From contig JAGVPT010000172.1 in the NCBI GenBank assembly GCA_020052095.1, positions 1 to 39,439 of the forward strand: 39,439 nucleotides of DNA. The letters are read 5' to 3'. Position numbers and translations under genes: made by a program. The DNA is from Bacteroidota bacterium (GTDB lineage Bacteria; Bacteroidota; Ignavibacteria; UBA10030; UBA8401). Positions 7,476-35,003 of this stretch are shown here, one piece after another. The notes below the pieces were generated by a model that did not search any database, was not told the origin of the DNA, and saw only the letters and a list, made by a program, of their open reading frames with translations. Every line of letters starts with the position of its first letter. Position 1 is the stretch's first letter.

Positions 7476-7486
7476 CTCCGAATTTG

Positions 7487-7515: not shown

Positions 7516-7568
7516 GCTTACAATTAGTTAAGATAATGAACAAACTTTGACCCCAAAACTTCTATGAC

Positions 7569-9323: not shown

Positions 9324-9343
9324 TTCGATTTCAGGATACTGAT

Positions 9344-10351
9344 GTGAATATCATGGGAGTAAAACTCATCACGCTTGTTTTGCTTCTCACCGCAGCGCCA
9401 AACGCATTCAGTCAAGCGTTCGGCGATAAGGGACACAGCGCCAGAGCAAGCGCGCTCGGCCGTTCAGTCGTTTCGTTGACCAACGACCCGGTTCTGGTAT
9501 TCTACAATTCGGCAGCGAACGGTGGATCAGATCGTCCCTCAGTCCTCACTTCGTACACAAACCTCTATCCAAGTATCGCCGATGCAAACTTCAATTTCAT
9601 CACGCTGTCCGGGATCTACCCTCTATCGAATCTGGGAGTAGTGGGCCTTGGGGTCACGCAGTTTTCGCCCACGGGCTGGGCCGAGAATGTAATCGTCGGC
9701 AATTTCTCCTCGAAAATGCTGACCGATGACCTGCTGGTAGGAGGGAGCGTGAAGTACTTGCATTGGAAATCGGATGCCCCCAAGGGCGAGAATGCGGTTC
9801 CTGAGCCCGGGCTTGCCTACAACGGCATCTCATTCGACCTTGGCGCTTCCTACATCTTGCGGGGAGTCATGAAAGAAAATGATATTCGGTTCGGGCTCTC
9901 TCTCCAGGACATCAATCAGCCCTCGGTGGCGGCGAACGGGTCAGCAGACGCCCGGCTTCCGTTCCGGATTTCCGCCGGTGCATCGTATATTTCCCGGACG
10001 TACAACTACGTTATCACGGCCCAGATTTCGAAAGTGGACAACGAGCTTCTCTTCAGCGGTGGCGTCGAGCTGCTTGGTCTGCAATCGACGGTGTTGGGAG
10101 TTGACGGCAAGTTTCTTGTTCGATTAGGGGGCAGCACAGGCGTTGCCAACTTCAACTTTGTGCGGCTTGCAAAGACAGGGGGTGGAGCCAAAAGAATTGA
10201 GTTTTTCAACGGGGATCAGCTTCAGGGGGATTACAACGCCGGATTCGGGGTTCAGGCCGGTAATCTGGTGGTCGACTATGCCTATGTGATGCAGGCGCTC
10301 GCAGCGAACATCGGCGGGATCAATACTATTTCAGTTGGATACACCTTCTAA
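9344..10351 (+). CDS. PorV/PorQ-like outer-membrane protein
   Basis: Signal peptide then AFGDKGHSARASALGRSVVSLTNDPVLVFYNSAANG...VGLGVTQFSPTGWAE: PorV/PorQ family pattern; terminal aromatic ISVGYTF. Confidence 0.72.
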   Translation: MNIMGVKLITLVLLLTAAPNAFSQAFGDKGHSARASALGRSVVSLTNDPVLVFYNSAANGGSDRPSVLTSYTNLYPSIADANFNFITLSGIYPLSNLGVVGLGVTQFSPTGWAENVIVGNFSSKMLTDDLLVGGSVKYLHWKSDAPKGENAVPEPGLAYNGISFDLGASYILRGVMKENDIRFGLSLQDINQPSVAANGSADARLPFRISAGASYISRTYNYVITAQISKVDNELLFSGGVELLGLQSTVLGVDGKFLVRLGGSTGVANFNFVRLAKTGGGAKRIEFFNGDQLQGDYNAGFGVQAGNLVVDYAYVMQALAANIGGINTISVGYTF

Positions 10352-10357
10352 TATGAT

Positions 10358-13300: not shown

Positions 13301-13501
13301 AGAAACCTACGAGATGGATCGTTTGATAATAATTCGTCTACAACGGCCATTTCCTTAACGAACAAGACACAGTACAGCGGCTACAACATCGTGATCGATT
13401 TTGGTTTTAAATTAACGACAGTAGAGTACATACGAGCGCAGGACAAAAGGTACGATATGCAAAACTCTCTGATGTTTTTCTCGATTTTTGCAGGGTACTG
13501 A
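10358..13501 (+). CDS. Large putative outer-membrane beta-barrel protein with acidic Ca-binding-type loops
   Basis: GTG start; signal peptide LLSFVILLLICAGSLRS; amphipathic beta-rich C-terminal half; DKNNDGIPDDDQNSNGVPD and DWNNNGIIDQQEND segments. Confidence 0.6.
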   Translation: MESVVKFRLLSFVILLLICAGSLRSQFIDRDEFKGNTGYMNYSGRNYENYSIQFLKRKIYDNFGNFLVDGLSVYELGEAQSQFVDPRLGGSDVQKSKYYNLWFNNLVIGNDAYGGFTSRVMLGDAIRTKFTSLTFDKARFNGIRWDGSSSKYRGSLIASRVSDPIRIRFDASLTANSIARPQTWSAYLLGGHFETDVGDVLTVGATYVNQNQRRSNLDSKKQSLKGVPANTIPRVIFVRVRDDSPNDNSGPIIYREPEVYINGVQRPLLNINYRVPDQSTRQTDMTKPVQYWVFRDFGFNKSVFVPGVGVQTSQIDPSTGKFIFKNFTNYDNYRSQFGSSAPPTYPVEVRGNTNIVFAFVVPYGTESASFNLLLANDYCLDAAHDWIMAADQYGTAIDPKIPSSTDSTLVGTPTPFFTAERANGNVRDASNKRWVRYDYGLNTGMAVYGMNFKFRWLGFELEGEYAQSVSYRKYPVMHDWDGLSTSIPSLLTSNEFQREGESFFIRGSKKIGRLVLGGERYRIDPWYKTALDVYTLENSYYTHQDANGAYIYDPPDYYGYFDSDPNRTTPNQGLNGGAYYSLVDDNDDNDRWEDGFYFYNASPSAGASGFPNFPRNSNVLFVPKGDANGTEVADPFLLGYRQNVNELSGLNDIVRKPDAGIFPGRDKNNDGIPDDDQNSNGVPDYAEDFLTYYSDPPSFQAGDDWNNNGIIDQQENDIYPDYPYNPDLDGYHGFAAFAAAKNLTMGVGLLRETAIARGGFNATNYFKTTYNTSSPRFGELDLYYTLKRLHDNIPNDEYVFSGLISSDPTPTYVRDGLAYRNSVDHTLYIGTRYRQIPNLNIENNVRYEFNKQDIVGFPSLAKLQLGPLVDEQFGGDLTSIGLVNKVDYVYPFLNNKVQLRPQFKIRTLKVVTTTVYDDGTRATSILTNYQQMIPIFRVDYRLTDNTDLHFGLQGVDPLTYLDRISNGYLKAGSADFLLLRSRNLRDGSFDNNSSTTAISLTNKTQYSGYNIVIDFGFKLTTVEYIRAQDKRYDMQNSLMFFSIFAGY

Positions 13502-15069
13502 TGGCGACTGCAACCATGCTTCGGAGAAGGTCCTTTCTTCCCAGTCTCATTGGCGTGTCACGCATATGGTGCCTTGCGGTGACGATTATCTTCATGGAAG
13601 GATGCGATGCGGTATATCACTACGTTGTGTATCCGCCGCAACGGATCGAATATACGCTGGTTCCCGATGAAGATCTCATCGGGGGTCTCCACGACAGCCT
13701 CTATTCCGTGAGCGAGGACAAACGGACAGCGATTTTTGACAAGAAAGACTTCAAGGTGGAGATCAAATACTTGTCCGATTACCATCTTAACAACGTGGAG
13801 TTTCCCGAGCAGTCTCAGTCCGGATTGTTATCGACAAACCCTTTCACGTACGCAAATTGGATTGACCCTCAAACGGGGTACACTCCTCAGCGATTCTCGG
13901 TGTTTAAGGTCACGATCTATAATTACGCAGGGGGTAAATTGAATCTTGATCCGGAGAACAGCTTCTTGATCACGGACCGCGGGGATTTTCTTAACAGCTA
14001 CGGCCGGGAAGAGAAGAATAGCCGGTACGAAAGTCTCGAGGCGTACTTCAAGAAACGCAAAGGGACCTCGGGCGTTGAGGACGATATTTTTGAAAGCAGG
14101 ATGGGCATCGTGCGGCGTACGCTCCTGTATCTCGCGAAGCCGGTCTTTCGCGGGGATGTACGGGACGGGCTCCTCGTCTTCGACCCCCTCGCAGATGGCG
14201 TCGAACATATCAAAATCGACATCCGGGATTTCATCACCGAGTATGACGAAAACAATCAGCCGTCAAGCTTCACATCGCTCGCTTTCTATTTCAAGAGAGT
14301 TCCCTACATTGCGCCTGATTCGAAGGGGGGCTTCGTTGCCGGACGGGATGATACCAGCGGGGAGCTTCGAAAACGCCAAATCAGGCGCATCAACCCTGAC
14401 GCGCGGCCGGCGGGAGACGCGGCGATCGCGGTAAAGACAACCAACGTCACGCCCGTCGCCGACCTGATGAAGCCCCTTGACGCGTACCTTGCTGAATTTA
14501 CGAATTTCAAGATATCCTACACGAAAACTTCGTTGTCTATGCGGGACCTGAAATCATCAAATATCCTTTTGATCATTGGCGATGAAGGTAAGCTTTCGTT
14601 CACTCTTGATCAGGCGAAAAGTACGGCAGAGTTTGTACGCGACGGCGGCTTCATCATTGCCGATGAGCGCTCATCCACGGCGCAGAGCGAGAACTGGCAG
14701 ACGATCAATAATTTCCTAACCGAAATCGGCGGCCTGCTCGGCCCCAATGTGACATACGGCAGAATCCCCATGGACCATCCCATCTACTCGGTATGGAAAC
14801 GATTCGACGTCGTGCCACCGTGCGATATCGAACTCTTGAATGTCCATAATCGAATCGTGAATGATTTTCTCGGGGGCATTTTTTACCAGGACAGACTCGT
14901 TGCTGTGATATCGAACCGCGGATATTCCACAGCATGGGGGAAATTCGGCCCGCCGGAATTCCGTGAAGGGAAGGATTACACGCGGCATCGCGAGTTGCTC
15001 TCGAATATTCTCTATTATGCTATTGAGTCAAAGAGACAGCTCAAGGTGGACGACACTACATCTAAATAA
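13501..15069 (+). CDS. DUF4159-domain lipoprotein
   Basis: ATG overlaps preceding TGA by 1 nt; lipobox-like IIFMEGC-D; C-terminal LLIIGDEGKLSF...FVRDGGFIIADE...HPIYSVWKRFD...LVAVISNRGYSTAWGK typical of DUF4159. Confidence 0.72.
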   Translation: MATATMLRRRSFLPSLIGVSRIWCLAVTIIFMEGCDAVYHYVVYPPQRIEYTLVPDEDLIGGLHDSLYSVSEDKRTAIFDKKDFKVEIKYLSDYHLNNVEFPEQSQSGLLSTNPFTYANWIDPQTGYTPQRFSVFKVTIYNYAGGKLNLDPENSFLITDRGDFLNSYGREEKNSRYESLEAYFKKRKGTSGVEDDIFESRMGIVRRTLLYLAKPVFRGDVRDGLLVFDPLADGVEHIKIDIRDFITEYDENNQPSSFTSLAFYFKRVPYIAPDSKGGFVAGRDDTSGELRKRQIRRINPDARPAGDAAIAVKTTNVTPVADLMKPLDAYLAEFTNFKISYTKTSLSMRDLKSSNILLIIGDEGKLSFTLDQAKSTAEFVRDGGFIIADERSSTAQSENWQTINNFLTEIGGLLGPNVTYGRIPMDHPIYSVWKRFDVVPPCDIELLNVHNRIVNDFLGGIFYQDRLVAVISNRGYSTAWGKFGPPEFREGKDYTRHRELLSNILYYAIESKRQLKVDDTTSK

Positions 15070-15087: not shown

Positions 15088-15780
15088 ATGCGACGATTAA
15101 TCATTGTCATTGTTTTCAGTTTGTCCGCGTTTGCCTTTCCGGCAGAGGCCGGGAATAAAGGCCCCATGCATCAATCGGCTCAGGGAATACCAGTCCACAG
15201 CTATGTCACGAGTTCTGCGAGTCAGCGCTTTCTGCTCGAGACGAGAGAGATTGAGTGTACGGATACTGCGCTCGTGGTCGATGAAGTCGGGAAGAAAGAA
15301 CACGAGATGACTCCGCGGCGTGTGAACGCTCTTCTTCTGTCTGTCGTTGTTCCAGGCGCCGGGCAAACGATGCTGGGCGATCCATACAAGGGTGTCGGAT
15401 TCACGCTCGCGTATTTCGGTTCCGCATTGACGGCTCTGATTTCTCAAAACAATTTTGTGGCTCGGGGTGAGCGTCTTGATGCCCTGGAATTTCAGTATGC
15501 CACTTCGACCAATTGGGCGTCGTCGAATCTCATTTACGGCCAAATGAAGGAGTCATACGATCTGTGGAAACAAGATCGAAACCGACGCAATGTTTTTCTC
15601 GTCGTATCGGCGGTGATTTGGATTGCTAATATTGCAGATCTTTTCTATAATACCGATGACAAAGGTGAGAAGATCTTCTCTCAAAACGCGGCCACTGGAA
15701 CACCCCCTTCGCTTTCGAAGGCTCCACCATTCCTGCAGGGTGCGACACTGTTGACCATAGCGCTACCTATAGGGAGATAG
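15088..15780 (+). CDS. DUF5683-domain protein
   Basis: RRVNALLLSVVVPGAGQTMLGDPYKGVGFTLAYFG...RNRRNVFLVVSAVIWIANIADLFY. Confidence 0.75.
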   Translation: MRRLIIVIVFSLSAFAFPAEAGNKGPMHQSAQGIPVHSYVTSSASQRFLLETREIECTDTALVVDEVGKKEHEMTPRRVNALLLSVVVPGAGQTMLGDPYKGVGFTLAYFGSALTALISQNNFVARGERLDALEFQYATSTNWASSNLIYGQMKESYDLWKQDRNRRNVFLVVSAVIWIANIADLFYNTDDKGEKIFSQNAATGTPPSLSKAPPFLQGATLLTIALPIGR

Positions 15781-15782
15781 AA

Positions 15783-16280
15783 ATGAATAACCTCCGCAGA
15801 AGATCCGAAGGACGCCTATTTGCTATGTGCACACGAAGTCTCACAGTTGCGCTCGTCCTCCTTACTGCTTCGTGGTGGGGCTGCGAACCGGACCGCCAGT
15901 TTGTTCCCGATACGCACAACGGCAAGGTTCCGGAAGTCATCAACCTTACGGTCAGGATCGACACCACCGCGACAAGGAAAACTGTTGTCAAGCTCGCATG
16001 GGCTTATGACACGGCGAGGTATGGGTCAGACCGGGATAAAGCAAACCTGAAGGATTGGGATGTGCATCGAAGCGTCGGAGATACGACCTTTTATCAGTCG
16101 CGCGGGAGAACGCTGTTTCCCTTTTTCTCCGACTCTTCAAACGAAGTACAGCCGCTAAGCAAAGACGTGCTCCTGTTCTATCAGATCAACGCCAGCGGCG
16201 TTGCCGATGTATTCGGGAGAAAAGTTCAATACGACGGCATGCCGTCCGATCTCATTCAAGTTGTCATTAAGAAAAAGTGA
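15783..16280 (+). CDS. Small predicted lipoprotein
   Basis: Signal sequence with lipobox-like TASWWGC-E; 165 aa; closely follows the DUF5683 gene. Confidence 0.6.
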   Translation: MNNLRRRSEGRLFAMCTRSLTVALVLLTASWWGCEPDRQFVPDTHNGKVPEVINLTVRIDTTATRKTVVKLAWAYDTARYGSDRDKANLKDWDVHRSVGDTTFYQSRGRTLFPFFSDSSNEVQPLSKDVLLFYQINASGVADVFGRKVQYDGMPSDLIQVVIKKK

Positions 16281-16338: not shown

Positions 16339-16370
16339 CAACAGTTCTTGTCTTTCACCTTGAACTGTTG
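16339..16370. repeat. Perfect 9-bp inverted repeat upstream of T9SS cargo gene
   Basis: CAACAGTTC (16339-16347), 14-nt loop, GAACTGTTG (16362-16370). Confidence 0.6.
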
Positions 16371-16397
16371 TCGCTATTAATTACAATGGAGGAAGAT

Positions 16398-19127
16398 ATG
16401 AGAGCATCTTTACAGATTATCCTGATATTTTTAATTCTTGCGTTTGGAATGGGTATATCGAGCTCGATCATCGTCGCGCAACAGGTAATTGATCCTGCAA
16501 ACTACATCACGTCCGACAACGCCCCAAATCAAACAGCTGGCGGGACAGCCGATACACCAGAATACAAAGAAATCGGGCCGTGGTACACAGGAACTACCGG
16601 TCTGGCGTGGGGAAGCGACTATCGGCAAACATCCCAGGCGGGTGGGGAAAGCATAATAGGCAGGTCCGCGAAATGGATAACGAACATACCTGCCGGGAAA
16701 TCGGGCAACTTCGTTCTCTACGTGTATGTTATTCAGTCGCCGAACAATGCATCCAATGTTTATTATACTGTGCAGAGAGAGTTTGAGACAGTGGTGTTGG
16801 ATTCCCTCCGCCATGACCAACGCCGCACGACCGTTAATCCGAATACCGCGGTCGGCAACGGCGCGTGGGTTCCCCTTACAATCCAGCCCCTGACAGTCGG
16901 GAACGTGTTCACAACGCTTGGAGCAGATTCTGCTTCGGGAACAACAATTATGCGTGCTGACGGGATTCGATGGCTTCGGAGCACCGCAACCGGTTCCGAT
17001 CTAGAATTTGGCCGCCGGAACAAGACCCTTTTTGATAACACTCGTATCGGAGAAAACTGGCTTGACTCCCCGTTAGGATCGATCACCTACAAAGAGATGC
17101 CTTTCTTCAATTTGGGGGCTCAGGATCTTATTGTGAGCAGTGTTCATGCGGTAAAGAGCCCGGGACGATGGGACTTTAAGCCGACGATAGGTAGTTTTCC
17201 TCTGACCATTCATCCAGGGCAGAAGGTGATAGTGCAAGTCGGATTCCGTCCGTTCCAGGAAGAATCGGTGACAGATACAATGGTTGTGGAAAGCAACGAC
17301 TCACTCGAGGCCAAAGCCACAATTCCATTATCGGGAAACGGAATCAACTATAACTTTATCCTGAATGCAAGCTTGAGTAACGAGCCGCATTACAATGCGC
17401 CATTTAACAACCTGGGAAACCCGAAGCGGCCAGTGATCTCATTGATCGGTCCTGGATGGACTGAGAGCGGGACAGGTTATGCTGCCTTCCCTTACCCAAT
17501 TGCCGCCGGCAACACACACGGGATCTACACATTCGATACGGCTCCGACAACCGGAGTCGAACATGATTTCCAGTTGCCCGACAGCTTGAATGGGAAACCA
17601 GGATCGTCGGGATATTACTTCATAGAATGGGGCGTTATTGCCTTCACTTCCAACTCTGAGTCCAACACACAGGCGACAATTATTCCGCCGTTTTCGACGG
17701 ACACCATTCGAACGACATTTACTCAAAATGACGCCGTTGGCACGCCGCCCTTCTGGAAATCGATCGCACCTTCCGCAGTATTTCTCACGCAAGGAGATTT
17801 TGTGAAAGTCCTCTACAACCGGCCCGCAGCGCCACCCTACGGCCCAGTTCTTCGAGCCGACCTGCTGCGCATAAGGAAAATTCCGACCGGTCCAGCGATC
17901 GTGGCATCGGATAACGTGAATTTCCAAAATGTGTCAATTTTTCCTGGAATTCGAGCGGCGGAAGATAATTACCGATTGGATGTTCAGATCAATAGCGGAG
18001 GAGAGAGCCTGCTTCGAATTGACAGCCTGAAATTTAGAACGGGAAAGTACTATTCGATAGTCAATCTTCCCTCGTTCCCGTTTGAGTTGCCGGCTATCAA
18101 CGGGAGTGTGAACCTGACGATAAAATTCACCCCCGACACCATCGCGAATGGACTCACGGACTTAGTGTCAATTTATTCGAACGACACCACCAAGAATCCT
18201 TACCACATCAACATAACTGGAAATGGAGTCGGCACCAACTTGACTGTTGAGGAAAATGATCCTACTTCATTCATTTATCCGCCAAGTCCCGTTGTGTATC
18301 CCGACCTTGCCAATATGAGCAAGTGGCAGACGATCACCGATCCCAATGCCAGCGCCGGTTCCCGACTGATCGGTTATGTGTACTGGCTGGCTACAGATCC
18401 GCAGCGGAACAAAACATCCTACGTCGAGTACTTCCCAAAAATTCCGCGACGAATCGGAATGCCAGTAGAAATTGACACCTTCCGAATCTATGCGCAAGTC
18501 CCCCCGGGGTCGGGCAACTCCTCGCCCAGAGTAAGGTACATCATTTTTCCGCAAGGAGGAGGAACGCCAATCATCGACACCATCTCTCAGAATGGTCAAT
18601 CCAGCAGTGTTTTCCTGGGGCAAGCTGCATTCCTGCGATCGGATGATAGAGACGCCCACTCGGCAGGCGGCGGTCCCGGCATCAACGGATACATTCGCAT
18701 AGAGAATGACACGACCCTCGTGAGCGACTACTACAAAGATTCGACTGTAAACAGGGCACGCCGTGACACCTTCGTCATTCGCGCCGATGCAATTATTCTC
18801 CGGCAGAAGACATCCGATGTTGAGTACTACGTGTATCCCACGCTCCCGGGCGAGTATGAACTAGCCCAAAATTATCCGAATCCGTTTAATCCGACGACAG
18901 AAGTCCGATTCTCGCTGAAGGTACGCGGGACCGTCGATCTTCGCATCTACGACATCCTCGGCCGCGAAGTGAGAACTCTGACGTCAGAGCGGATGGGGGC
19001 CGGTACTTACAGGGTCATGTGGGACGGAAGAACCAATCTCGGAAGTGCGGCTGCCACCGGGGTCTATTTCTACAGACTCATTGTGAACGACTATGTGGCG
19101 ACGAAGAAGATGCTTTTATTGAAGTAA
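16398..19127 (+). CDS. T9SS-type sorted surface protein with choice-of-anchor/golvesin-like domains
   Basis: ORF track starts at 16368; ATG 16398 is preceded by GGAGGA. C-terminal YPNPFNPTTEVRFSLKVRGTVDLRIYDILGREVRTL...GVYFYRLIVNDYVATKKMLLLK; internal repeats ending IPLSGNG and NITGNG. Confidence 0.8.
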   Translation: MRASLQIILIFLILAFGMGISSSIIVAQQVIDPANYITSDNAPNQTAGGTADTPEYKEIGPWYTGTTGLAWGSDYRQTSQAGGESIIGRSAKWITNIPAGKSGNFVLYVYVIQSPNNASNVYYTVQREFETVVLDSLRHDQRRTTVNPNTAVGNGAWVPLTIQPLTVGNVFTTLGADSASGTTIMRADGIRWLRSTATGSDLEFGRRNKTLFDNTRIGENWLDSPLGSITYKEMPFFNLGAQDLIVSSVHAVKSPGRWDFKPTIGSFPLTIHPGQKVIVQVGFRPFQEESVTDTMVVESNDSLEAKATIPLSGNGINYNFILNASLSNEPHYNAPFNNLGNPKRPVISLIGPGWTESGTGYAAFPYPIAAGNTHGIYTFDTAPTTGVEHDFQLPDSLNGKPGSSGYYFIEWGVIAFTSNSESNTQATIIPPFSTDTIRTTFTQNDAVGTPPFWKSIAPSAVFLTQGDFVKVLYNRPAAPPYGPVLRADLLRIRKIPTGPAIVASDNVNFQNVSIFPGIRAAEDNYRLDVQINSGGESLLRIDSLKFRTGKYYSIVNLPSFPFELPAINGSVNLTIKFTPDTIANGLTDLVSIYSNDTTKNPYHINITGNGVGTNLTVEENDPTSFIYPPSPVVYPDLANMSKWQTITDPNASAGSRLIGYVYWLATDPQRNKTSYVEYFPKIPRRIGMPVEIDTFRIYAQVPPGSGNSSPRVRYIIFPQGGGTPIIDTISQNGQSSSVFLGQAAFLRSDDRDAHSAGGGPGINGYIRIENDTTLVSDYYKDSTVNRARRDTFVIRADAIILRQKTSDVEYYVYPTLPGEYELAQNYPNPFNPTTEVRFSLKVRGTVDLRIYDILGREVRTLTSERMGAGTYRVMWDGRTNLGSAAATGVYFYRLIVNDYVATKKMLLLK

Positions 19128-19244: not shown

Positions 19245-22200
19245 ATGACTCTCAAAACTATCATTCTCTTCTTACTGGCCGCCGGCGGCGTCAGCTACTT
19301 TGTCCCGACGCCGCAGGAGGTTCGTGATTCCTTCACCGCGGGTCAGAATTTTTACGCATCGAAAGACTATCGAAAAGCGATCGATCAATACAACAAGATT
19401 CTCGCAACCGAAAGCAATCTGCTGACGGCTGACAGCGTACGGGTTTCCCTCCTCAATGGCGAGCTTGACGCCGGCGTTCGGACTGCCGCCATCTATCAGA
19501 AAGCAAATGCATACCGCAACCTCGGCAGGAATGATTCGGCGACTGCTCTCTTCCGCCTTGTCCAGACGCGTTTCGATACCCCCAAGCTCCTCGTCCTCGC
19601 TCAGTATCAAATCTATGACATTTTCTACCAGCAGAAGGAGTACGACAGCGTCGTCGTTGCGGCTCGTGATCTCGTTACAAGGTATCCTTTTGACGAGAAA
19701 GTTGAACAGGCCTACTACGACATCGGCTGGGCGTTTCGGCTGAAGAAGGAGTACGATAGCTCCACCGTTGCTTTTAAGTACCTGGTTGACATGTACAAGA
19801 GTAGTCCCTTGCGGGTGCGGGCTATGTACCAGATCGGCCAGAATGATCTCGACGATTCGAACTGGCGCAACGCTCTGAAAAGCTTTCAGACCCTGATCAA
19901 TGAGTACCAACTGGAATCGTTCGCAAAAACCGAGTTTGAGAAGATGGAGTTACGAACGAACAAGGAGAGACAGATTTTCGATGCGGCCTCCAACCGCGAG
20001 TCCGACAACACGAGCTTGGAACTAGTGTCGAAATCCGAATTCAAGATCGCAGAGGCGTACCAGCGGATGGACATGTATGATTCCTCGATGCAGCGGTACC
20101 GGTCCATTATTAAGCGCTATACGCTGCTTCCTACGCTTGCGGAGATTTCATACATCAAGATGGCGGAATTAACGCTCCAGGTGAAAGGGACAGAAGCGGC
20201 GATTGCGGTGTACAAGGGTGCCATCGACGAAAACTTTCAGAACAAGGTGTTCCAGGCCCGGATGCAGTACAAAGTGGCGCGGACGTATCAGGATAAAGAT
20301 GTGTTCACGCGGGCGGCGGACGAGTATGCATTCTATGTGAAAGCGTATGGAGAGTTCGCACTCCAGTCAGATTTTTCGGTCGAGAATGCACGCTTTTTTG
20401 TGGTCCTTAACAGAAATGCGGCAATGGAGTACGAGGAGGTAATTGCATCGAGCGATTCCTTCCTCGTGAACCATCCGGAGAGTGAATATACTCCAAAGGC
20501 TCTTCTTCTCCGCGGGCTATCGTTTCAGAGCCTCGGAAAGCTTGACCAGGCACGGCAAACGTATGAAGACCTGATCGCGAGGTTCTCCGCTTCGACGGAA
20601 GCGTACCAGGCACGAACGCAGAATGCGAAATCGTATTATGATGAGAAAGACTACGCCCAGGCGGTAAAATATTATGAGGCCTTGCTTCGTGAAGATCTCT
20701 CAAAAATCGACGTCAACGCTGCAAACTACTATCTTGGGGTCTGTTATTTTGCCCTTGCGCGGTATGACGACGCCATTCGAACGCTTAACACCGTCGCTTC
20801 TCAATCGGCGTTCTATCCCTTTGCGTTTGCGCGCCTAGTGAAGACGCTCATAGCTCAGACAAAGTACGAAGAGGGAGAAAAATACATTACCGACGTTATC
20901 GAACGGGGAACGAAAGATACCGCAAGCTATACCGCCTATTCGCATCTTGCTCACGGAGACTTGCTGGCAGCATGGGGAAAATATGACAAGGCGATCGACG
21001 AGATGTCGACTGTGCTCAAGGATTCGTCAATCAATGAGAACGCGAGATTCCAGGCAACGTACGCACGCGGGGCACTCTATCAGCAAACGAAGAGATTTGG
21101 TGATGCCATCAAAGAGCTGGAGTTTTGCCTCAGCCAGCCGAATTTCAGGAAGAACTTTTTCGGTTTAATCGCTGCTGCGAATGAGAAACTCGCCTTGAGT
21201 TACGTTGGCGTTGGCCGGAAGAAAGAAGCAGTCGCGACGATGTCCCAACTTCTCGCAAATGCCCTCACTGCGGCGGAAAAGATCCGCTATCTTTCCGGGC
21301 TCACCGAGGTGTATGCACAGCTCAACGAATTCCAGAAGGTAGTAGAATACGGAAGTCAAATCGTCGCCGCCGATAGCGCAGACGACAATTCGCGGGCAAA
21401 GGCGTATGCGACACTTTCGAACGCTTACGGGAATCTTAATGACCTTGCGAAGTCGACCGCCGCGCTCTTCGAGGCGGCTGAACGACTTCCTGCGCATCCC
21501 TACATCCGAGATTTGATCTTTGAAACCGCAATGCTCCATTACGACTCGCAGGATTTCGTCGGGGCAGGAGAATTGTTCCGGAAATATATTGAAAAATACC
21601 AGACGGGGGACAAGTATGAGGACGCCTTCTATTATGAATCGGAGTGTCTGACACACTCGGGGAAGACCGAGGAAGGGATCGCTTCACTTCAGAAATACAT
21701 GATCCAATATCCCTCGAGTTCGCGGTTGGCAGATGCGCAATACGAGATTGCCGAAACATACTACAATACGAACCGGTTCGAAGAAGCAGCCCGCGAATAT
21801 GCCCGCACTGCCCGACTTTTTCCAAAGTCTGACTTCGCCGTGTCATCCCTCTACAATCAAGGGTGGTGCTACTACCGGATGACAGACACCCTGAAAATGG
21901 TTTCGGCTTTCCGCCAGCTTGTCGATGTCTATCCCGAGAGCAAAGAAGCCTCAGACGCGCAGTTCAGCATTGGGGACTTCTACTATAATGCACAATCGTA
22001 TGACAGCGCAAGGATTGCGTACCAGAAGATTCTGGACAAGTATCCGGCCTATGCTAGGGTTGAAGAGGCAAAGGAGCTCGTCCGCGAATTAAGCCAGATC
22101 ACCTCGTACAGGGAGTACGAGGCAGGGATGAGGAGCTTCGACGACAAAGATTACGCGACGGCAATTACAAAGCTTGAAAGTGTTGTGCATAAATACCCGG

Positions 22201-22388
22201 ATGCCGATGTCGTGTCCGCATGTGAGGTGAATATCGCCTCCGCATACGAACAGATCGGAGAAAGGGAAAGGGCGTTGAAGTTATTCGAAGAGATCATCAA
22301 TAAGTATTCTCCCGTATCAACAGCGCAGACGATCGTCTTTTTTGCTGAACTGCACAGGCGGTGGATCGAAAGCGGCAGGACTGAATGA
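19245..22388 (+). CDS. Large TPR-repeat protein
   Basis: ORF track gives TTG 19227; ATG 19245 (MTLKTIILFLLAAGGVSYF) looks like a signal/anchor start. Many TPR units, e.g. YDSARIAYQKILDKYPAYARVEEA, FEEAAREYARTARLFPKSDFA. Confidence 0.82.
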   Translation: MTLKTIILFLLAAGGVSYFVPTPQEVRDSFTAGQNFYASKDYRKAIDQYNKILATESNLLTADSVRVSLLNGELDAGVRTAAIYQKANAYRNLGRNDSATALFRLVQTRFDTPKLLVLAQYQIYDIFYQQKEYDSVVVAARDLVTRYPFDEKVEQAYYDIGWAFRLKKEYDSSTVAFKYLVDMYKSSPLRVRAMYQIGQNDLDDSNWRNALKSFQTLINEYQLESFAKTEFEKMELRTNKERQIFDAASNRESDNTSLELVSKSEFKIAEAYQRMDMYDSSMQRYRSIIKRYTLLPTLAEISYIKMAELTLQVKGTEAAIAVYKGAIDENFQNKVFQARMQYKVARTYQDKDVFTRAADEYAFYVKAYGEFALQSDFSVENARFFVVLNRNAAMEYEEVIASSDSFLVNHPESEYTPKALLLRGLSFQSLGKLDQARQTYEDLIARFSASTEAYQARTQNAKSYYDEKDYAQAVKYYEALLREDLSKIDVNAANYYLGVCYFALARYDDAIRTLNTVASQSAFYPFAFARLVKTLIAQTKYEEGEKYITDVIERGTKDTASYTAYSHLAHGDLLAAWGKYDKAIDEMSTVLKDSSINENARFQATYARGALYQQTKRFGDAIKELEFCLSQPNFRKNFFGLIAAANEKLALSYVGVGRKKEAVATMSQLLANALTAAEKIRYLSGLTEVYAQLNEFQKVVEYGSQIVAADSADDNSRAKAYATLSNAYGNLNDLAKSTAALFEAAERLPAHPYIRDLIFETAMLHYDSQDFVGAGELFRKYIEKYQTGDKYEDAFYYESECLTHSGKTEEGIASLQKYMIQYPSSSRLADAQYEIAETYYNTNRFEEAAREYARTARLFPKSDFAVSSLYNQGWCYYRMTDTLKMVSAFRQLVDVYPESKEASDAQFSIGDFYYNAQSYDSARIAYQKILDKYPAYARVEEAKELVRELSQITSYREYEAGMRSFDDKDYATAITKLESVVHKYPDADVVSACEVNIASAYEQIGERERALKLFEEIINKYSPVSTAQTIVFFAELHRRWIESGRTE

Positions 22389-23806
22389 CGCAGAAGTGGT
22401 GGCTCGACAAATATCGGCGGTATCTGCTTATCGCGATCGTCGGGTCGTCAATGATTCATTTGATCGTGGGAGGTGTTATTCGTATCATCCAAGGGCCTGA
22501 GGAGAAGGTCCTCACTGTGAGGCTGAGAACGTACGACGTTATCAAGCCGCCGATTCGGTACGATGCCCAGCCTCCCCGCTTTATAAAGTCCTTCACACTT
22601 GCGAAAGAGGTTGCCTACACACCGCAGACGATGGCGCGAGAAATCAAGTTTACACGCTCAGAAATTCCGCGCTCGACGGCGCCTGCGAATTCCCGCTCGA
22701 GCGCACCTCCATCGGGGGGGCGTGGCCGGGGAGAGGGGAGCGTGTTTTTCGGCGCATTGACAGCAGGTGCCGGCGCAAGCGAGCTTGGCTGGGGAATCCC
22801 GGGGGGCGCGCAGAGTTACGGGAGAAGCTTCGGGGTGGGCGGGAGCGGAGGGTGGGGAGCCGGTCCGGGTGACGGGAAAGACTGGGGACCGCAGTTCGCT
22901 TCCGACGTAGAGAACACCCGATCAACCGGCGGCGGAGGGTTGTCCGCGATGAAAGACGAGTTGATAAGCTATGAAAATTTCAGCGATCGATTTGACGGCT
23001 GGTTTGAAGTAAACCCGCGGAACAAGAAGGACATCAAAGGATTCTTGAATATTTATCAGTTGCAGTACAACTCGACCCGGCTGGAAAAGGCGCCGACGGA
23101 CAACAAGGGAGTTCAGATCCAGGGATGGATCGTCGTCGACAATCAACCGTCGTGGAACTGCGTTCCCCAGGCACTCCAGTCGCTCGCGCAGTACGCAAAC
23201 GACAGCACCAAGCTGAGCGTTCAAATTCGGGGGACGGTGCGCCTCGATTCGAAAGAGTTAAATACGATTCCGTTTCTCTTCATGATGGGATTTCAAGCCG
23301 CCATCAAATATTCGAAGGAGGAAGCGAGGGCGCTCGGCCATTATTTGAAGAATGGGGGGTTTCTCCTTATCGATGACGGCAATGCATACCAACCCGGCGC
23401 TTTTAACCAGTCGGTGCGGCAAATGCTCCGCGATGCTCTCGGGTACGAAGCCGTCTTTGAACGCGTTTCCGCATCGCATCAATTATTTCATTCGTTCGAA
23501 GATTTCAGCGCGCCGCCGTCGGGCGATGACATGGTCCGTTACGACCCGAATGTCCGCGCAGTGAAGGAGATCTATCCATTCGTTGACGCAATATTCATTA
23601 ACGGAAGGATGGTGGCTCTCGTGTCGAATCGCGGCTATTGCTTCGCCTGGGGATACTGGAAATATATTCCCCCTTCGGCGGGGGGACCATACGACAATCA
23701 ACGCCAACTCCAGTTCGGTCTCAACGTGATCGTCTACGCCCTCGGACAGAGAGGGGGTATTGTGGATCAGAACCGAACACGGGTTGCGTCGGAACAACGG
23801 CATTGA
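22385..23806 (+). CDS. TonB-like N-terminal TM plus Gly-rich linker plus DUF4159 domain
   Basis: ATGA overlap with TPR gene; TM helix LLIAIVGSSMIHLIVGGVI carries SxxxH (S21/H25); C-terminal NGGFLLIDDG...MVALVSNRGYCFAWGYW resembles the DUF4159 domain of ORF 13501. Confidence 0.72.
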   Translation: MTQKWWLDKYRRYLLIAIVGSSMIHLIVGGVIRIIQGPEEKVLTVRLRTYDVIKPPIRYDAQPPRFIKSFTLAKEVAYTPQTMAREIKFTRSEIPRSTAPANSRSSAPPSGGRGRGEGSVFFGALTAGAGASELGWGIPGGAQSYGRSFGVGGSGGWGAGPGDGKDWGPQFASDVENTRSTGGGGLSAMKDELISYENFSDRFDGWFEVNPRNKKDIKGFLNIYQLQYNSTRLEKAPTDNKGVQIQGWIVVDNQPSWNCVPQALQSLAQYANDSTKLSVQIRGTVRLDSKELNTIPFLFMMGFQAAIKYSKEEARALGHYLKNGGFLLIDDGNAYQPGAFNQSVRQMLRDALGYEAVFERVSASHQLFHSFEDFSAPPSGDDMVRYDPNVRAVKEIYPFVDAIFINGRMVALVSNRGYCFAWGYWKYIPPSAGGPYDNQRQLQFGLNVIVYALGQRGGIVDQNRTRVASEQRH

Positions 23807-23817
23807 GTGAAAAAGAA

Positions 23818-23938
23818 GATTGCAAGATTACAAGGATTGCAAGATTACAAGATTGCAAGATTACAAGGATTGCAAAATTACAAGATTGCAGGATTACAAG
23901 ATTGGAAGATTAAAGGATTGTGAGAGTTTGAGATTGTA
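23818..23938. repeat. Degenerate 16-17-bp tandem repeat (GATTGCAAGATTACAA), about 7 units
   Basis: Units at 23818, 23835, 23851, 23868, 23884, 23900, 23916; each splits into two 8-mers GATTGCAA/GATTACAA; decays toward the 3' end. Confidence 0.85.
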
Positions 23939-23987: not shown

Positions 23988-26639
23988 ATGAAAGTAGCAC
24001 GTATTGTGGCGGTGTTTGCTCTGGCACTCATCGTGCACAGTAATGTAGCTGCAGAGGAAGACCGTTCGCGCTATAGGGACTATTTCGAGAAGGCGGCTGC
24101 GGAGTTCAATGTCCCCTCCGATGTGCTCAAAGGCATTTCCTTCGCAGAGACCCGCTGGTCGCATTTAACATGGGCAGTTGGCGACACTGCGTCCGCGTGC
24201 AATGGGATGCCCCGGCCATATGGAATTATGTCGCTGTGGGATAATAACTATTTTGGACACAGCCTCCGCGACGCGGCGGCACTTCTCGGGAAGAGCCCGG
24301 ACGAATTGAAGAATGACCCATTCGAAAATATTCGAGGTGCAGCCGCGCTATTGAGAAAATTCTATAATGAACTTCCCAAGCCGGAAGGGACGGACCCGGG
24401 CGATATTGCTATCTGGCGTAACGCAATTGCCGCGTTTTCCGGCCTGCCACAGTTAGAATTATCTCAACAGCACGCGCTCGACATCTATACGCAAATGACG
24501 CGGGGTTACCGTCAATTCGGTATTGAGTGGGAAGCGCGCCCGGTCAGTCTTGGACCGATGCGGGCCGCTGTGGCAAAGATACAAGAAGGAGCAAAGACAA
24601 AGACTCCGCCGCCACTGCGTAAAACCGCAGATCAACCCGATTATCCGCTCGCGAAATGGGCACAGGCTGCTGAGGGGCATTGGTACACTAGCGGCTTTGG
24701 TGATTATTTTGTTGTTATCCATGACATGGAAGGATATTATTTATCGGTGATATCGTACTTTCAGAATCCGGCTACGCAAGCAAGTGCCCATTTTTGCATC
24801 AACAGTCTACAGAACGGCCCGGGCGAAAACAGGCCAAGTGATCCGCCGGCTGGAGAGATCACGCAAATGGTCGAACTGAAGTATTGGGCCTGGCACGTTG
24901 TGTGTTGGAACAGATACATGCTAGGAATAGAGCATGAAGGATTCGTCAATACGGCAGCGTGGTACTCACCCGAAATGTACAACGCATCGGCGAAATTGAC
25001 GGCGTGGCTGTGCGACCGCTTCAGCATTCCAAAAGATCGCAACCACATCATTGCGCATGGCGAATGGCAAAATGTAACATGGAAGGGTTGGATGGCCACA
25101 AATTTCCCGGGAATCGACGTAACCTGCAACAACCACACCGACCCGGGCCCATTCTGGAATTGGACGTTGTATATGGGTTTGATTACAAGCGACACCCTCG
25201 CGCCGAAGATCGCCTCAGTCGTCCCAGCACAAAGCGCTACGAACGTCCCAGCCTATAAAGATGTGGCGATCAGTTTTACTTCTCCCATGGACATTGCTTC
25301 CACAAACAGTGCCTTTTCTATTGCTCCGAGCGTTGCGGGCGCCGTCGCTTGGAACGCAGATTCAAAAATGCTGACATTTCATCCGACGAATTTTTTTGCT
25401 TTCAGCACAACCTACACAGTGAAAATAGATGGTACAGCCAAAGGTGCGATTTCGGGGAAAGGGCTTGATGGCAACGGCGATGGTGTCGGCGGAGACTCGT
25501 ACCAATTCTCGTTCACCACGGCTCCCGTCGACACGACCGGTGCGGTCATGGTTCAAAGCTACCCGCGCGATGGCGAGACAAATGTCAGCCTTTTTGCGGA
25601 TGTCAAGGTCACATTGAATGAGCCAATCACGCAAGCCTCGTTAGCGGGACGTGTGTTTATAGAGGACAGCACCGGAACATCCGTTCCGTTCAGCAACGGA
25701 AAGTATGAAACGATAGCGGACCGCGGAGTAATTTCATTCACTCCAACGAAGCTTCAGAGAAATAAGTTGTTCCGGATAAAATTGCTGGCTGGTCTGAAGG
25801 ATTTGTACAATAACGATTCGAAATCGGATGTGATTATTCAGTTCAGGACAACACAGGATACAGTACTGCAAGGAAGCGTCGCAGATAATTTTGAAACCAA
25901 TGCGAGAGGATGGCTTCAGCCCGGATCCGCCACTGGCTCTTCTTTTATCGATTCAACAGCCACCTCGTTTTTGATTTCAACGGATAAGAAAAAGAGCGGA
26001 TCCAATTCTGGAAAATTGTCCTATGCCTTTTCGCAGAACCAAAATGGTGTTGTCGTACTCAAGCCGACAACGTCCCCATTCCTTGACGCGGTTTCTACTC
26101 TTGGGCTCTGGGTCTACGGCGACGATGGAAAAGACACTCTGGCGGCAACTTTTCAGCCGCTCAATCAGACTATCTCTTTCGGTCCCGTGAATTGGTACGG
26201 TTGGAGATTCCTCACTCTGCAAACCGGTCAACTAACGGGGAGCGGAAAGAAACTGAGTAGTCTTCTTCTCAGTCAAACTGTCTCGGGCGCCAAACAGGGT
26301 GTACTTTATTTTGACGACATGCAGACCGACCCGACAGTCACTTCCGGGATTTCGGAGAGAGACGGTGTGAGACCGGATCACTTTTCTCTCGATCAAAATT
26401 ATCCAAATCCGTTTAACCCGAAGACTGACATACAATTTGGCCTGCCTCGCTCCTCGCACACGACGTTGAAGATTTATGATATCTTGGGGAGAGAAGTCAC
26501 GACGTTGATCAATGATAATCTTGGGGCAGGCCGCTATAAGGTTTCGTTTGACGCGTCGTCGCTTCCCGGCGGCGTGTATTTCTACCGGATCGTTGCGTCG
26601 GAGTTCAGCGCGGTTAAAAAGATGATGCTGACGAAGTAA
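23988..26639 (+). CDS. Secreted bifunctional peptidoglycan hydrolase (SLT-like plus N-acetylmuramoyl-L-alanine amidase) with Ig-like domains and T9SS CTD
   Basis: Signal peptide; FNVPSDVLKGISFAETRWSHL...YGIMSLWDNN (SLT-like); FVVIHDMEG...HIIAHGEWQ...HTDPGPFWNW (amidase_2-like); two SbsA/Big_5-like repeats; YPNPFNPKTDIQFGLP...GVYFYRIVASEFSAVKKMMLTK. Confidence 0.82.
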   Translation: MKVARIVAVFALALIVHSNVAAEEDRSRYRDYFEKAAAEFNVPSDVLKGISFAETRWSHLTWAVGDTASACNGMPRPYGIMSLWDNNYFGHSLRDAAALLGKSPDELKNDPFENIRGAAALLRKFYNELPKPEGTDPGDIAIWRNAIAAFSGLPQLELSQQHALDIYTQMTRGYRQFGIEWEARPVSLGPMRAAVAKIQEGAKTKTPPPLRKTADQPDYPLAKWAQAAEGHWYTSGFGDYFVVIHDMEGYYLSVISYFQNPATQASAHFCINSLQNGPGENRPSDPPAGEITQMVELKYWAWHVVCWNRYMLGIEHEGFVNTAAWYSPEMYNASAKLTAWLCDRFSIPKDRNHIIAHGEWQNVTWKGWMATNFPGIDVTCNNHTDPGPFWNWTLYMGLITSDTLAPKIASVVPAQSATNVPAYKDVAISFTSPMDIASTNSAFSIAPSVAGAVAWNADSKMLTFHPTNFFAFSTTYTVKIDGTAKGAISGKGLDGNGDGVGGDSYQFSFTTAPVDTTGAVMVQSYPRDGETNVSLFADVKVTLNEPITQASLAGRVFIEDSTGTSVPFSNGKYETIADRGVISFTPTKLQRNKLFRIKLLAGLKDLYNNDSKSDVIIQFRTTQDTVLQGSVADNFETNARGWLQPGSATGSSFIDSTATSFLISTDKKKSGSNSGKLSYAFSQNQNGVVVLKPTTSPFLDAVSTLGLWVYGDDGKDTLAATFQPLNQTISFGPVNWYGWRFLTLQTGQLTGSGKKLSSLLLSQTVSGAKQGVLYFDDMQTDPTVTSGISERDGVRPDHFSLDQNYPNPFNPKTDIQFGLPRSSHTTLKIYDILGREVTTLINDNLGAGRYKVSFDASSLPGGVYFYRIVASEFSAVKKMMLTK

Positions 26640-29920: not shown

Positions 29921-31285
29921 ATGCTAACTCTTAATGAATTTTCGCTTGACCGTGTCCTTGGCGCAACGCTCATGGCGGTCGCCGCTATGGTGTCCCTGAT
30001 TATCGGCGCGGCAATTGGCATTTACTCCAAACCGTCGCAAAAAATCCATGCGGCGATCATGGCCTTTGGTACTGGCGCGCTTATTCAGGCTGTCGTGCTT
30101 GAACTTGCCTATGAGTCAGCGGAGCGATTGATCAGAGAAACACATGTCGCCGGTATCACAAGCTGGATGTGGGTATCAGCGGGTTTTATCGTTGGCGGCA
30201 TCATTTACTATGTCGGCAACAAAGTCATCGAAACACGCGGTGGAGCGCTGCGACACCCCGCTACCACGAAGTTATACTTGTTGGAGAAAAAAAGGGAAGA
30301 ATATGCGGAGTTACTAAAGAGCCTGTCCAAAGTTGAGCTCCTTCGTTCGCTTCCTCCTGAAGAAATGGAAGAGTTGCTACGGTATGTTTCCCCCGTTAAA
30401 GTCCAAGCTCGAGAAGTGATTTTTCGCGAGGGCGACAAAGGTGATGCGCTTTATTTGATAGATTCGGGTGAGATTGATATCATCGTTGCCGACGGAAAGC
30501 GGCGACCGAAGGCCAAAGGTTCTACCGGTTCTTCAAACAAACTGGCGCGGCTCGGACAGGGTAAATCATTTGGCGAGATGGCCTTACTCATCGCAGAACC
30601 GAGATCAGCGACAGCAGTTGCAGTGACAGACTGCACTTTGCTGAAGATCAGTAAGGAAGACTTTGATGAGTTGATTCAAAAATCGCACAGGCTGCGTGCT
30701 GCCGTGGAGGATTTGAATTCACAACGGTTGCTCCAGAATGTGCGTTCTGCGGCAGATCAAATTGATTCGGAGCGTTGGCAAAAAGTTGCGTTGGCAAACA
30801 TCCAACGGATTTCTCGAAGCGAAGAGCGTGCCTTGATAAAGGAGCATGTTGCATCGGGAGCGCCCCTTGCGATATTCATGGGGGCGATGCTCGACGGCAT
30901 TCCGGAATCAATCGTGATAGGCGCGAGCTTTGTCTCGCTGGCGACGTTCAAGTTCACTTTTCTTGCCGCAGTATTTCTCTCCAATCTGCCCGAGGCGATG
31001 GCGAGCGCCGCCGGTATGATGGACGCGGGTTTCAGCACCTTTCGAATTTTCAGGTTATGGCTTAGCTTAGTTATTGCGGGAGCCGTCGCCGCAGCCGTGG
31101 GAAACATTTTTCTTACCACTGCGCCGCCGGCATTGTTAACACTCGTCGAAGCGGTTGCCGGAGGGGGAATTCTTGCAATGGTTGCCTCAGTGATGATGCC
31201 TGAAGCGTATGAACACGGGGGAGCGTCGGTTGGGCTGTCGACAATCGCCGGATTTCTTACGGCATTATTGTTTACCTTCCTTTAA
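29921..31285 (+). CDS. ZIP-like membrane protein interrupted by a cyclic-nucleotide-binding domain
   Basis: N-terminal TM segment; central REVIFREGDKGDALYLIDSGEIDII...GKSFGEMALLIAEPRSATAVAVTD (CNB phosphate-binding cassette); C-terminal TM segment with GAMLDGIPESIVIGASF and FLSNLPEAMASAAG. Confidence 0.78.
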   Translation: MLTLNEFSLDRVLGATLMAVAAMVSLIIGAAIGIYSKPSQKIHAAIMAFGTGALIQAVVLELAYESAERLIRETHVAGITSWMWVSAGFIVGGIIYYVGNKVIETRGGALRHPATTKLYLLEKKREEYAELLKSLSKVELLRSLPPEEMEELLRYVSPVKVQAREVIFREGDKGDALYLIDSGEIDIIVADGKRRPKAKGSTGSSNKLARLGQGKSFGEMALLIAEPRSATAVAVTDCTLLKISKEDFDELIQKSHRLRAAVEDLNSQRLLQNVRSAADQIDSERWQKVALANIQRISRSEERALIKEHVASGAPLAIFMGAMLDGIPESIVIGASFVSLATFKFTFLAAVFLSNLPEAMASAAGMMDAGFSTFRIFRLWLSLVIAGAVAAAVGNIFLTTAPPALLTLVEAVAGGGILAMVASVMMPEAYEHGGASVGLSTIAGFLTALLFTFL

Positions 31286-31531: not shown

Positions 31532-33232
31532 ATGCGATTTTCTAAAGGCTTTTTTCCGACAGTAAAAGAAGTTCCAAGCGACGCCATCATTCCTAGTCAT
31601 CAATTGATGATTCGTGCCGGATTGATACGGCCGTTGGGAGCGGGGATATTTTCTTTCCTCCCGATCGGGTATGCGGTCATGAAGAACGTCATGCAGATCA
31701 TTCGGGAAGAGATGGACGCGATCGGTGGTCAGGAATTTTGCCTCCCTGCCTTAAATCCCGTTGAATTGTGGGAAGAGAGCGATCGTGTGAGGTCGTTTGG
31801 CGATACAATGTTCCACGTAAAAAATCGTGCGCTTGTTCTTGCGCCTACGCATGAAGAAGTAATTACCTCCATAGCGCGCAACCATATCAGATCATACAAA
31901 GACCTTCCTCAGATCTGGTACCAGATTCAAACAAAATTCCGCAACGAGCCGAGGCCAAAATCGGGCGTGCTCCGCGGCCGGCAGTTCAATATGAAGGATT
32001 CGTACAGTCTGGATGCCTCGCAGGAAGGATTGGATAATAGTTACGACCTTCACGCCGAGGCTTATAAGAAAATCTATTCGAGGTGCGGCTTGCACTTTTT
32101 TATCGTCGGTGCCTCGAGCGGGGCAATGGGCGGAAGTGGTTCGCAAGAGTTCATGGTTGAATCTGAAGCGGGCGAAGACACTGTTGCTCTCTGCGATAGC
32201 TGTCATTACGCTGCGAATGTCGAGGTGGCATCATCGGGAGTTGCACCTGCGATTCGAACGAAAGAGAGCCATGCGATTGAAGAGATTTTCACACCAAATA
32301 TCAAGACGATCGATCAGCTTGCGGAATTCTTAAAGGTTGGAACGGATCGATGCGCAAAATCTCTTGTATATATCGGCGATGGGAAGCCGGTCCTTATTTT
32401 TATGATGGGAAATGATCAGCTTAATGAAACAAAGCTACGGACGGCACTAGGAACTGATGCGCGCGCAGCGGAACCGGAAGAACTCTCGTCTCTAACTGGT
32501 GCCGATGCCGGATCCATAGGTCCAATCGGCCTGAAGGCTAACTTCACAATTATTGCGGACAAGAGACTAGAAGGGGCAAACGGGCTAATTAGCGGCGCTA
32601 ACAAAAATGATTACCACATCAGAAACATCGATTTCAATCGAGACGTGAAGATCGGGAGCTATTATGATCTTCGAACGGTGGAACAGGGTGAACCGTGCCT
32701 CAAATGTTCGAAACCCCTTCGTATCGTTAAAGGGATCGAATTGGGTCATATCTTCAAGCTGGGAACAAAGTATTCGGTCAGCATGAAAGCAAACTTCCTC
32801 GATGACCAGGGAAAAGAGCAGCCCATCATCATGGGAAGCTATGGGATCGGCCTCGAACGGATTATCGCGTGTTTCATCGAGCAGCATCATGACGCCAGCG
32901 GGATCATCTGGAGCAAATCGATAGCCCCGTATGACATTCACCTCATTTGCGTAAACGCCAACTCGGAAACGGTTGTCGCGAAGTCCGAAGAACTATACCG
33001 GATGCTGACGGAGACGCACATTTCTGTTCTTTACGATGACAGAACAAACGTCACCCCTGGCTTTAAATTCAACGATGCGGACCTGCTTGGTATGCCCCTG
33101 CAAGTAATCGTCGGCGAAAAAAATCTAAAGAACAATCAAATCGAGCTGAAAGAACGGCTTACGGGAAAAAGATGGACCGTGGCCGTTGATCAGCTTGTGG
33201 GCGAAGTAAAGAATAGAGTCTTCGGTTCCTAG
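31532..33232 (+). CDS. proS: Prolyl-tRNA synthetase
   Basis: MRFSKGFFPTVKEVPSDAIIPSHQLMIRAGLIRPLGAGIFSFLPIGYAVMKN; LVLAPTHEEVIT; FRNEPRPKSGVLRGRQFNMKDSYSLD; IMGSYGIGLERI; internal editing-like insertion. Confidence 0.95.
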   Translation: MRFSKGFFPTVKEVPSDAIIPSHQLMIRAGLIRPLGAGIFSFLPIGYAVMKNVMQIIREEMDAIGGQEFCLPALNPVELWEESDRVRSFGDTMFHVKNRALVLAPTHEEVITSIARNHIRSYKDLPQIWYQIQTKFRNEPRPKSGVLRGRQFNMKDSYSLDASQEGLDNSYDLHAEAYKKIYSRCGLHFFIVGASSGAMGGSGSQEFMVESEAGEDTVALCDSCHYAANVEVASSGVAPAIRTKESHAIEEIFTPNIKTIDQLAEFLKVGTDRCAKSLVYIGDGKPVLIFMMGNDQLNETKLRTALGTDARAAEPEELSSLTGADAGSIGPIGLKANFTIIADKRLEGANGLISGANKNDYHIRNIDFNRDVKIGSYYDLRTVEQGEPCLKCSKPLRIVKGIELGHIFKLGTKYSVSMKANFLDDQGKEQPIIMGSYGIGLERIIACFIEQHHDASGIIWSKSIAPYDIHLICVNANSETVVAKSEELYRMLTETHISVLYDDRTNVTPGFKFNDADLLGMPLQVIVGEKNLKNNQIELKERLTGKRWTVAVDQLVGEVKNRVFGS

Positions 33233-33338
33233 TCCTGGGTCCAAAGTCCGAGGTCCTGGGTCCGTGGTCCTGAGTTCGTGGTCCTGAGTTCGTGGTCCTG
33301 AGTTCTAAGTTCTAGGTTCTAAGTTCTTGATTCGTAGG
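33227..33338. repeat. 14-bp tandem array (CCTGAGTTCGTGGT), 8 units, left arm
   Basis: Units in strict 14-bp register: tcctagtcctgggt, ccaaagtccgaggt, cctgggtccgtggt, cctgagttcgtggt x2, cctgagttctaagt, tctaggttctaagt, tcttgattcgtagg. Confidence 0.88.
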
Positions 33339-34860: not shown

Positions 34861-34891
34861 GATTAACATTGGATAGACGGGAGAATGAATA

Positions 34892-35003
34892 ACTCAGAAC
34901 ATATGACTTAGAACTCAGAACTACGAACTTAAGACTACGGACTCAGGACTACGGACTCAGGACCTCGGACTCCGGACCACGAACTCAGAACCACGAACTT
35001 AAG
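34892..35003. repeat. 14-bp tandem array (ACCACGAACTCAGG), 8 units, right arm
   Basis: actcagaacatatg, acttagaactcaga, actacgaacttaag, actacggactcagg x2, acctcggactccgg, accacgaactcaga, accacgaacttaag; strict 14-bp register, inverted relative to 33227-33338. Confidence 0.88.

Follow-up and report, generated by a model that had tools for sequence, protein, structure and literature searches.

Introduction

TonB and TolA are known to deliver the energy for processes at the outer membrane, and in E. coli TonB the histidine of the N-terminal helix is essential; according to Larsen et al., it is reportedly the only member of the Ser/His pair in that helix that E. coli TonB needs. In cryo-EM structures, Ser16 and His20 of TonB touch Ser34 and Trp38 of ExbB (PMC12215075). 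The vWA-type force transducers combine a SHLS-type helix carrying a conserved histidine with a disordered linker and a non-TonB end, and are encoded beside TolQ/TolR-like and TPR genes, but their function is not known (Williams-Jones et al. 2025, PMC12204202). The gliding apparatus of Myxococcus, which includes GltG and AglRQS, brings together a TonB-like transducer, a TolQR-like motor, TPR proteins, barrels and a lipoprotein (PMC3169522).

Here, we describe a protein of a Bacteroidota bacterium (GTDB lineage Ignavibacteria; UBA10030; UBA8401) which is encoded at 22385-23806 on the forward strand of a 39,439-nucleotide contig (JAGVPT010000172.1, assembly GCA_020052095.1). The whole of this stretch is referred to as the window. 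We interpret the protein, with a probability of about 0.82, as a TonB/TolA-like force transducer anchored in the inner membrane, with DUF4159 as its effector domain, serving an outer-membrane machine encoded in the same cassette. Motor genes adjoin this gene in related genomes, and therefore the protein probably drives an outer-membrane machine that has not been described. The nearest published precedent is the vWA type, with which the window protein shares the histidine-bearing helix, the linker, a non-TonB end domain, and motor and TPR genes as neighbors. The vWA transducers, however, end in a vWA domain, which the window protein lacks; its end domain is DUF4159, with the fold of PDB 4I66 and of ThuA-like proteins. 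The cassette also adds, unlike the vWA loci, a large barrel, a PorV-like barrel, lipoproteins and a type IX secretion system (T9SS)-type surface protein. The text of Williams-Jones et al. 2025 (PMC12204202) makes no mention of any DUF. Searching the literature for DUF4159 yielded no paper, and in the literature covered the DUF4159 transducer type appears to be undescribed. GltG differs from the window protein in carrying an FHA domain and a TonB C-terminal match, and no homology between its system and the cassette has been shown.

Domain Layout of the Proposed DUF4159 Transducer

The gene is an intact open reading frame of 473 codons with an ATG start, whose first 4 bases overlap the stop of the TPR gene upstream. 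Its N-terminal transmembrane helix (residues 14-35; 22424-22489; hydrophobic over residues 13-33), with the sequence LLIAIVGSSMIHLIVGGVI, contains S21-x3-H25, the codon of H25 lying at 22457-22459. A disordered linker of about 150 residues, rich in Pro, Gly and Ser, follows (residues 39-185; 22499-22939). The only Pfam domain is DUF4159 (PF13709) at residues 253-453 (23141-23743), which scores 94.7 bits against a cut-off of 25.9. An AlphaFold2 model built with 17 orthologs places a helix at residues 3-35, a low-confidence region with pLDDT below 50 at 39-185, and a folded C-terminal part at approximately 200-470. The three-part arrangement of the predicted protein is TonB-like. The transmembrane helix with its S-x-x-x-H spacing, the linker and the C-terminal DUF4159 domain had all been named in a preliminary description made from the DNA letters alone, and each of them was recovered in the sequence, the Pfam match and the model.

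The end domain is where the protein departs from TonB. No match to TonB_C (PF03544) was found in it at E 0.1, and it is not filed as a TonB because this domain is absent. In a Foldseek search, the closest structure to the end domain was Hoch_4089 (PDB 4I66; E 2.4e-11), which was also recovered by a profile search with the same domain, and ThuA-like proteins and IFT52 followed with weaker matches. Hoch_4089 and the stand-alone DUF4159 proteins thus have an end domain of the same family and fold as the window protein, in which, unlike in them, the domain is fused to a TonB-like N-terminus. Proteins of about 230 residues with DUF4159 and no such N-terminus are common in the relatives.

Conservation of the N-Terminal Helix and Its Relation to TonB

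His25 was kept in all 27 orthologs of a first alignment and in all 26 of a second, drawn from five families of the same class. Across residues 1-92 of the 26 orthologs, only H25, P55, P56, P64, K68 and K74 are invariant, and H25 is the sole invariant residue of the first 54 positions, while the rest of the helix varies. Ser21, on the other hand, is replaced by Ala in all sequences of two families (f6 and f20). The preliminary description had taken the spacing of both residues to be essential for coupling in TonB; in the orthologs, only the histidine of the pair is conserved. The idea of the whole S-x3-H as a conserved signature was accordingly dropped, and a variable serine beside a fixed histidine is in line with what Larsen et al. 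are said to have found for E. coli TonB. Orthologs lacking the helix would have spoken against a TonB-like anchor, but the helix is present in every full-length one. The called genes of the fetched loci have 253 hydrophobic N-terminal segments, of which 16 contain SxxxH: 14 belong to orthologs of the window gene, one to the TolA/TonB-like protein beside TolQR in the window's genome, and one is an unrelated edge match. Judged from these counts, the motif exceeds its chance occurrence in the orthologs.

The N-terminus exists in two types, A and B, and a profile of type B (families f1 and f6) was run blind against all 6,953 open reading frames of at least 60 aa in the fetched DNA. Ranks 1-47 were all type B orthologs. 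Ranks 48-78 held only canonical TonBs and type A orthologs (loci overlap, and hence genes recur), including the TonBs encoded on contigs C22 and C15 of the window's own genome, and the first unrelated frame appeared at rank 79. Homology of the N-terminus to TonB, including TonBs of the same genome, is in our view established computationally by this retrieval. After the helix, the segment TVRLRTYDVIKPP aligns with TVRIMKYSDLGPP of the genome's own TonB, at the position of the ExbD-binding D-box of E. coli. The alignment is plausible, and this candidate D-box or motor box (L43-TVRLRT-YDVIK-PP56; 22511-22552), as a proline-flanked strand, would be a further likeness to TonB, but the pattern is weakly specific. 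A simple count finds matches at several places and is weak alone; since the count is unspecific, the pattern was not used as separate evidence.

Motor Genes in the Window's Genome and Its Relatives

No ExbB or ExbD is encoded within the window, as the preliminary description had correctly stated, yet motor genes adjoin the orthologs in related genomes. They were sought family by family, and as the genomes are mostly drafts, absences are less sure than presences. The genome of the window encodes three MotA/ExbB proteins (an ExbB on C22, a TolQ on C135 and a MotA-like protein on C21) and three ExbD/TolR proteins (two on C22 and one on C135), none of them near the 22385-23806 gene. Elsewhere in the genome, an ExbB-ExbD-ExbD set is present on C22, where the gene order is STAS, ExbB, ExbD, ExbD, TonB, PBP and TPR. 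The same order was seen as a conserved operon, STAS-ExbB-ExbD-ExbD-TonB-PBP_like_2-TPR, at 7462-11494 of locus L056 and at orthologous loci, so that STAS-type and phosphate-binding-like proteins travel with the Ton motor. In some ExbB-ExbD-ExbD operons of the class, the canonical TonB has no helix histidine (L100 3105-3848, L103 3459-3857, L111 2587-3402 and L112 4571-5383), yet these genomes retain it in their DUF4159 transducer.

Four of the five families (f6, f16, f20 and f22) encode a motor within the cassette, in three arrangements. In f16 and f20, ExbB (96-105 bits) and ExbD (109-119 bits) sit directly between the TPR gene and the transducer gene. One form of f22 (f22A; G339 and G612) has ExbB-ExbD in this same place. 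The other form (f22B; G418 and G588) has ExbB-ExbD-ExbD-PBP directly downstream of the transducer gene, and the start of this order is visible in a further f22 genome (G655) before the contig ends. In f6, ExbB-ExbD-ExbD stands at the head of the cassette, and most f6 genomes (G044, G056, G082, G087 and G090) have a second such set elsewhere, with a canonical TonB. By eye, the transmembrane Asp of ExbD and the channel Thr positions of ExbB are kept in the cassette motors, in favor of our reading; against it, the position of E. coli ExbB Trp38, a TonB contact, is by eye not Trp in these ExbBs. Genetic linkage of the transducer to ExbB and ExbD is thus a computed observation. With a helix, linker and end domain, and with motor genes linked to its orthologs, the window protein has the features of the periplasmic force transducers driven by the proton motive force (PMF), that is, of TonB, TolA and the vWA type.

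It counts against our reading that the cassette of family f1, to which the window belongs, includes no motor. The sampled f1 genomes encode two or three ExbD/TolR proteins, namely an ExbD pair beside TonB and, in most genomes, one TolR-like protein of a TolQR set. Since these genomes have only the ExbBDD-TonB set, mostly with TolQR, the window protein must share a motor if it is motor-driven. In the window organism, the protein most likely relies on the single ExbB-ExbD-ExbD set of C22 and shares it with TonB, although the sharing is inferred. As the only Exb set of f1 also carries a canonical TonB, competition with TonB is unavoidable there, and this is what would favor a protein that uses ExbB/ExbD merely as an auxiliary or inhibitor competing with TonB, regulating the motor supply without a machine of its own. 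We give this possibility very little weight, for three reasons: outside f1 the cassette brings a motor of its own, without a canonical TonB next to it; the length and disorder of the linker, together with the folded end domain, suit an arm; and the linkage with the barrel, the TPR protein and the lipoprotein is constant.

Joint Exchange of N-Terminus and Motor

The type of N-terminus follows the type of motor. Type A (f16, f20 and f22A) pairs with a cassette ExbB-ExbD, and type B (f6 and f22B) with ExbB-ExbD-ExbD; f1 is also of type B, without a cassette motor. Within f22, identity between the two forms is 66.8% in the DUF4159 part but falls to 25.6% in the N-terminus, where f22A has 57.5% identity with f16. 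An N-terminal profile of f16 and f20 gives f22A 102-109 bits and f22B 3-7 bits, and one of f1 and f6 gives f22B 60-70 bits and f22A 11-13 bits. In a tree of the TPR and barrel proteins, f22B is nested in the clade of f16, f20 and f22A (SH-aLRT 100), beside f22A (86), and in a tree of ExbB its protein clusters with the cassette ExbBs of f6 (98/96). The simplest account of these sequence comparisons would be one replacement, in f22, of the motor together with the N-terminus of the arm, the remaining cassette being retained. On the present sample this is a single event, and it is strong but unrepeated evidence.

This joint exchange also bears on the plainest alternative, in which an ordinary helix anchors a DUF4159 protein, SxxxH is coincidental or serves helix packing, and ExbB/ExbD are unrelated neighbors. 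The motorless cassette of f1 and the common DUF4159 proteins of about 230 aa that have no such N-terminus would suit it. However, an ordinary anchor accounts poorly for a histidine that stays invariant while the remaining helix varies, for three different ExbB/ExbD arrangements, for an N-terminus and a motor that are exchanged together, or for an N-terminal profile that recovers TonBs, and we regard it as very unlikely. The notion of a PMF-coupled periplasmic arm with a non-TonB effector, as put forward in the preliminary description, draws support from the cassette motors, the exchange and the blind retrieval of TonBs.

The Cassette and Its Possible Task

In the window, the cassette genes upstream of the transducer lie on the forward strand. 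The first encodes an exported protein of 584 aa (7569-9323) with F5/8C-like and CHU_C-like segments, both below cut-off, which was found upstream wherever that stretch was fetched (the f22 stretch not included). It is followed by a barrel of 335 aa resembling the PorV/PorQ family (9344-10351; NCBIfam match below cut-off, 56 vs. 90 bits) and by a large outer-membrane beta-barrel protein of 1047 aa (10358-13501), which served as the cassette marker. The low-confidence model of the latter has a mean pLDDT of 48.5, and its top Foldseek matches are outer-membrane barrels and nothing more specific; when the barrel profile and the PorV-like protein were searched against solved structures, no useful match emerged. 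Next come a lipoprotein of 522 aa with a second, divergent DUF4159 identified by domain match (13501-15069), a DUF5683-like protein of 230 aa just under the Pfam cut-off (15088-15780), a conserved small lipoprotein of 165 aa present in most cassettes (15783-16280), and a secreted surface protein of 919 aa with a matched T9SS type A C-terminal sorting domain (16368-19127). A TPR protein of about 1047 aa with an N-terminal membrane anchor (19245-22388) stands upstream of the transducer in every cassette seen. The N-termini of the cassette proteins are consistent with signal peptides, lipoboxes or an anchor. All five families share the transducer, the PorV-like barrel, the 1047-aa barrel, the TPR protein and the second-DUF4159 lipoprotein, and most also carry the DUF5683-like protein, the small lipoprotein and the surface protein with the T9SS sorting domain. 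No TonB-dependent receptor was identified in the cassette, a further difference from TonB.

We found the cassette in 39 of the 391 genomes sampled from the class, spread over five families. Among 396 genomes sampled across the phylum, no carrier lay outside the class; the search was confined to whole genomes of that phylum, and one scan of genome contigs gave close relatives only. The cassette was not found either in a genome of the window's own genus that is estimated to be complete (G001), and with so patchy a distribution the idea of a housekeeping system was dropped.

The most likely task of the machine, which is inferred, is the assembly, export or movement of a T9SS-secreted surface protein. 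Two variants of our preferred reading specify this task further. The machine may be a T9SS accessory for secreting or placing a particular cargo, in which the PMF-driven arm would work on either the barrel or the PorV-like protein; a PorV-family-like barrel and a T9SS sorting domain are present in the cassette, and SprA is encoded elsewhere in the window's genome. The T9SS, however, has a proton motor of its own, GldL/GldM, and the PorV match remains below cut-off, so that this variant is possible but doubtful. We consider it unlikely that the machine is a gliding or surface-motility apparatus like Agl-Glt of Myxococcus, with the window protein in the role of GltG. The same types of parts are present (an ExbB/TolQ- and ExbD/TolR-like motor, a TonB-like transducer, TPR proteins, barrels and a lipoprotein; PMC3169522), and T9SS-type surface proteins belong to the cassette, but the likeness to Glt is by part type only, without demonstrated sequence homology or motility data, and such parts would suit secretion or envelope assembly equally well.

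Several other features of the window were observed. At 23988-26639, and adjoining the transducer gene in the examined f1 genomes, is a protein with Amidase_2 (peptidoglycan amidase), Big_5 and a T9SS sorting tail, by virtue of which it is apparently T9SS-secreted. Just past the stop of the transducer gene (23816-23920) lies a short tandem array of an 8-base unit, AAGATTGC/AAGATTAC; similar stretches are scattered over many contigs at about 20 other places in the genome, which makes this a dispersed repeat. Repeat arrays of 7 and 14 bases, at 33227-33327 and 34891-34999, flank an aldehyde dehydrogenase gene. A fatty-acid desaturase at 29258-29776 matches only the first 42 of 253 model positions and is probably truncated or frameshifted. 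A ZIP-like metal transporter at 29921-31285 has a cyclic-nucleotide-binding domain inserted mid-protein (cNMP 82 bits; Zip 24.8 bits, below cut-off).

Proposed Mechanism and Significance

In the mechanism that we propose for the transducer, the N-terminal helix would bind the side of the ExbB pentamer through His25, and the proline-containing beta-strand segment after it would probably bind ExbD. The disordered linker would cross the periplasm. At its far end, where TonB has its C-terminal domain, DUF4159 would engage a component that is encoded in the cassette and sits at, or close to, the outer membrane. The arm would be driven by protons flowing through ExbB/ExbD, and its DUF4159 end would pull on or remodel its outer-membrane partner. 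Both the physical coupling and the transduction of force are inferred, as is the target of DUF4159. Candidate partners are the 1047-aa barrel, the TPR protein and the second-DUF4159 lipoprotein, for none of which are there binding data; the lipoprotein is the most attractive because like domains often pair, which is a guess. Put together, these parts suggest a machine with an ExbB/ExbD motor, a DUF4159 arm docking on the second-DUF4159 lipoprotein, a TPR scaffold and a giant barrel, which places or moves a T9SS-secreted surface protein. It would be restricted to one class of Bacteroidota (Ignavibacteria-related), be previously undescribed, and have an exchangeable motor module made up of the arm N-terminus and ExbB/ExbD. 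This fuller picture is tentative, and we hold it at somewhat less than even odds.

The natural joint exchange of arm N-terminus and motor type supplies matched and mismatched pairs for tests of motor specificity. If our reading is true, the class of force transducers would gain a further end domain, after the vWA domain proposed in 2025, through a DUF4159 protein that comes with motor genes of its own. Such a protein would also offer the first way into the function of DUF4159 and draw attention to a trans-envelope machine that has not been studied.
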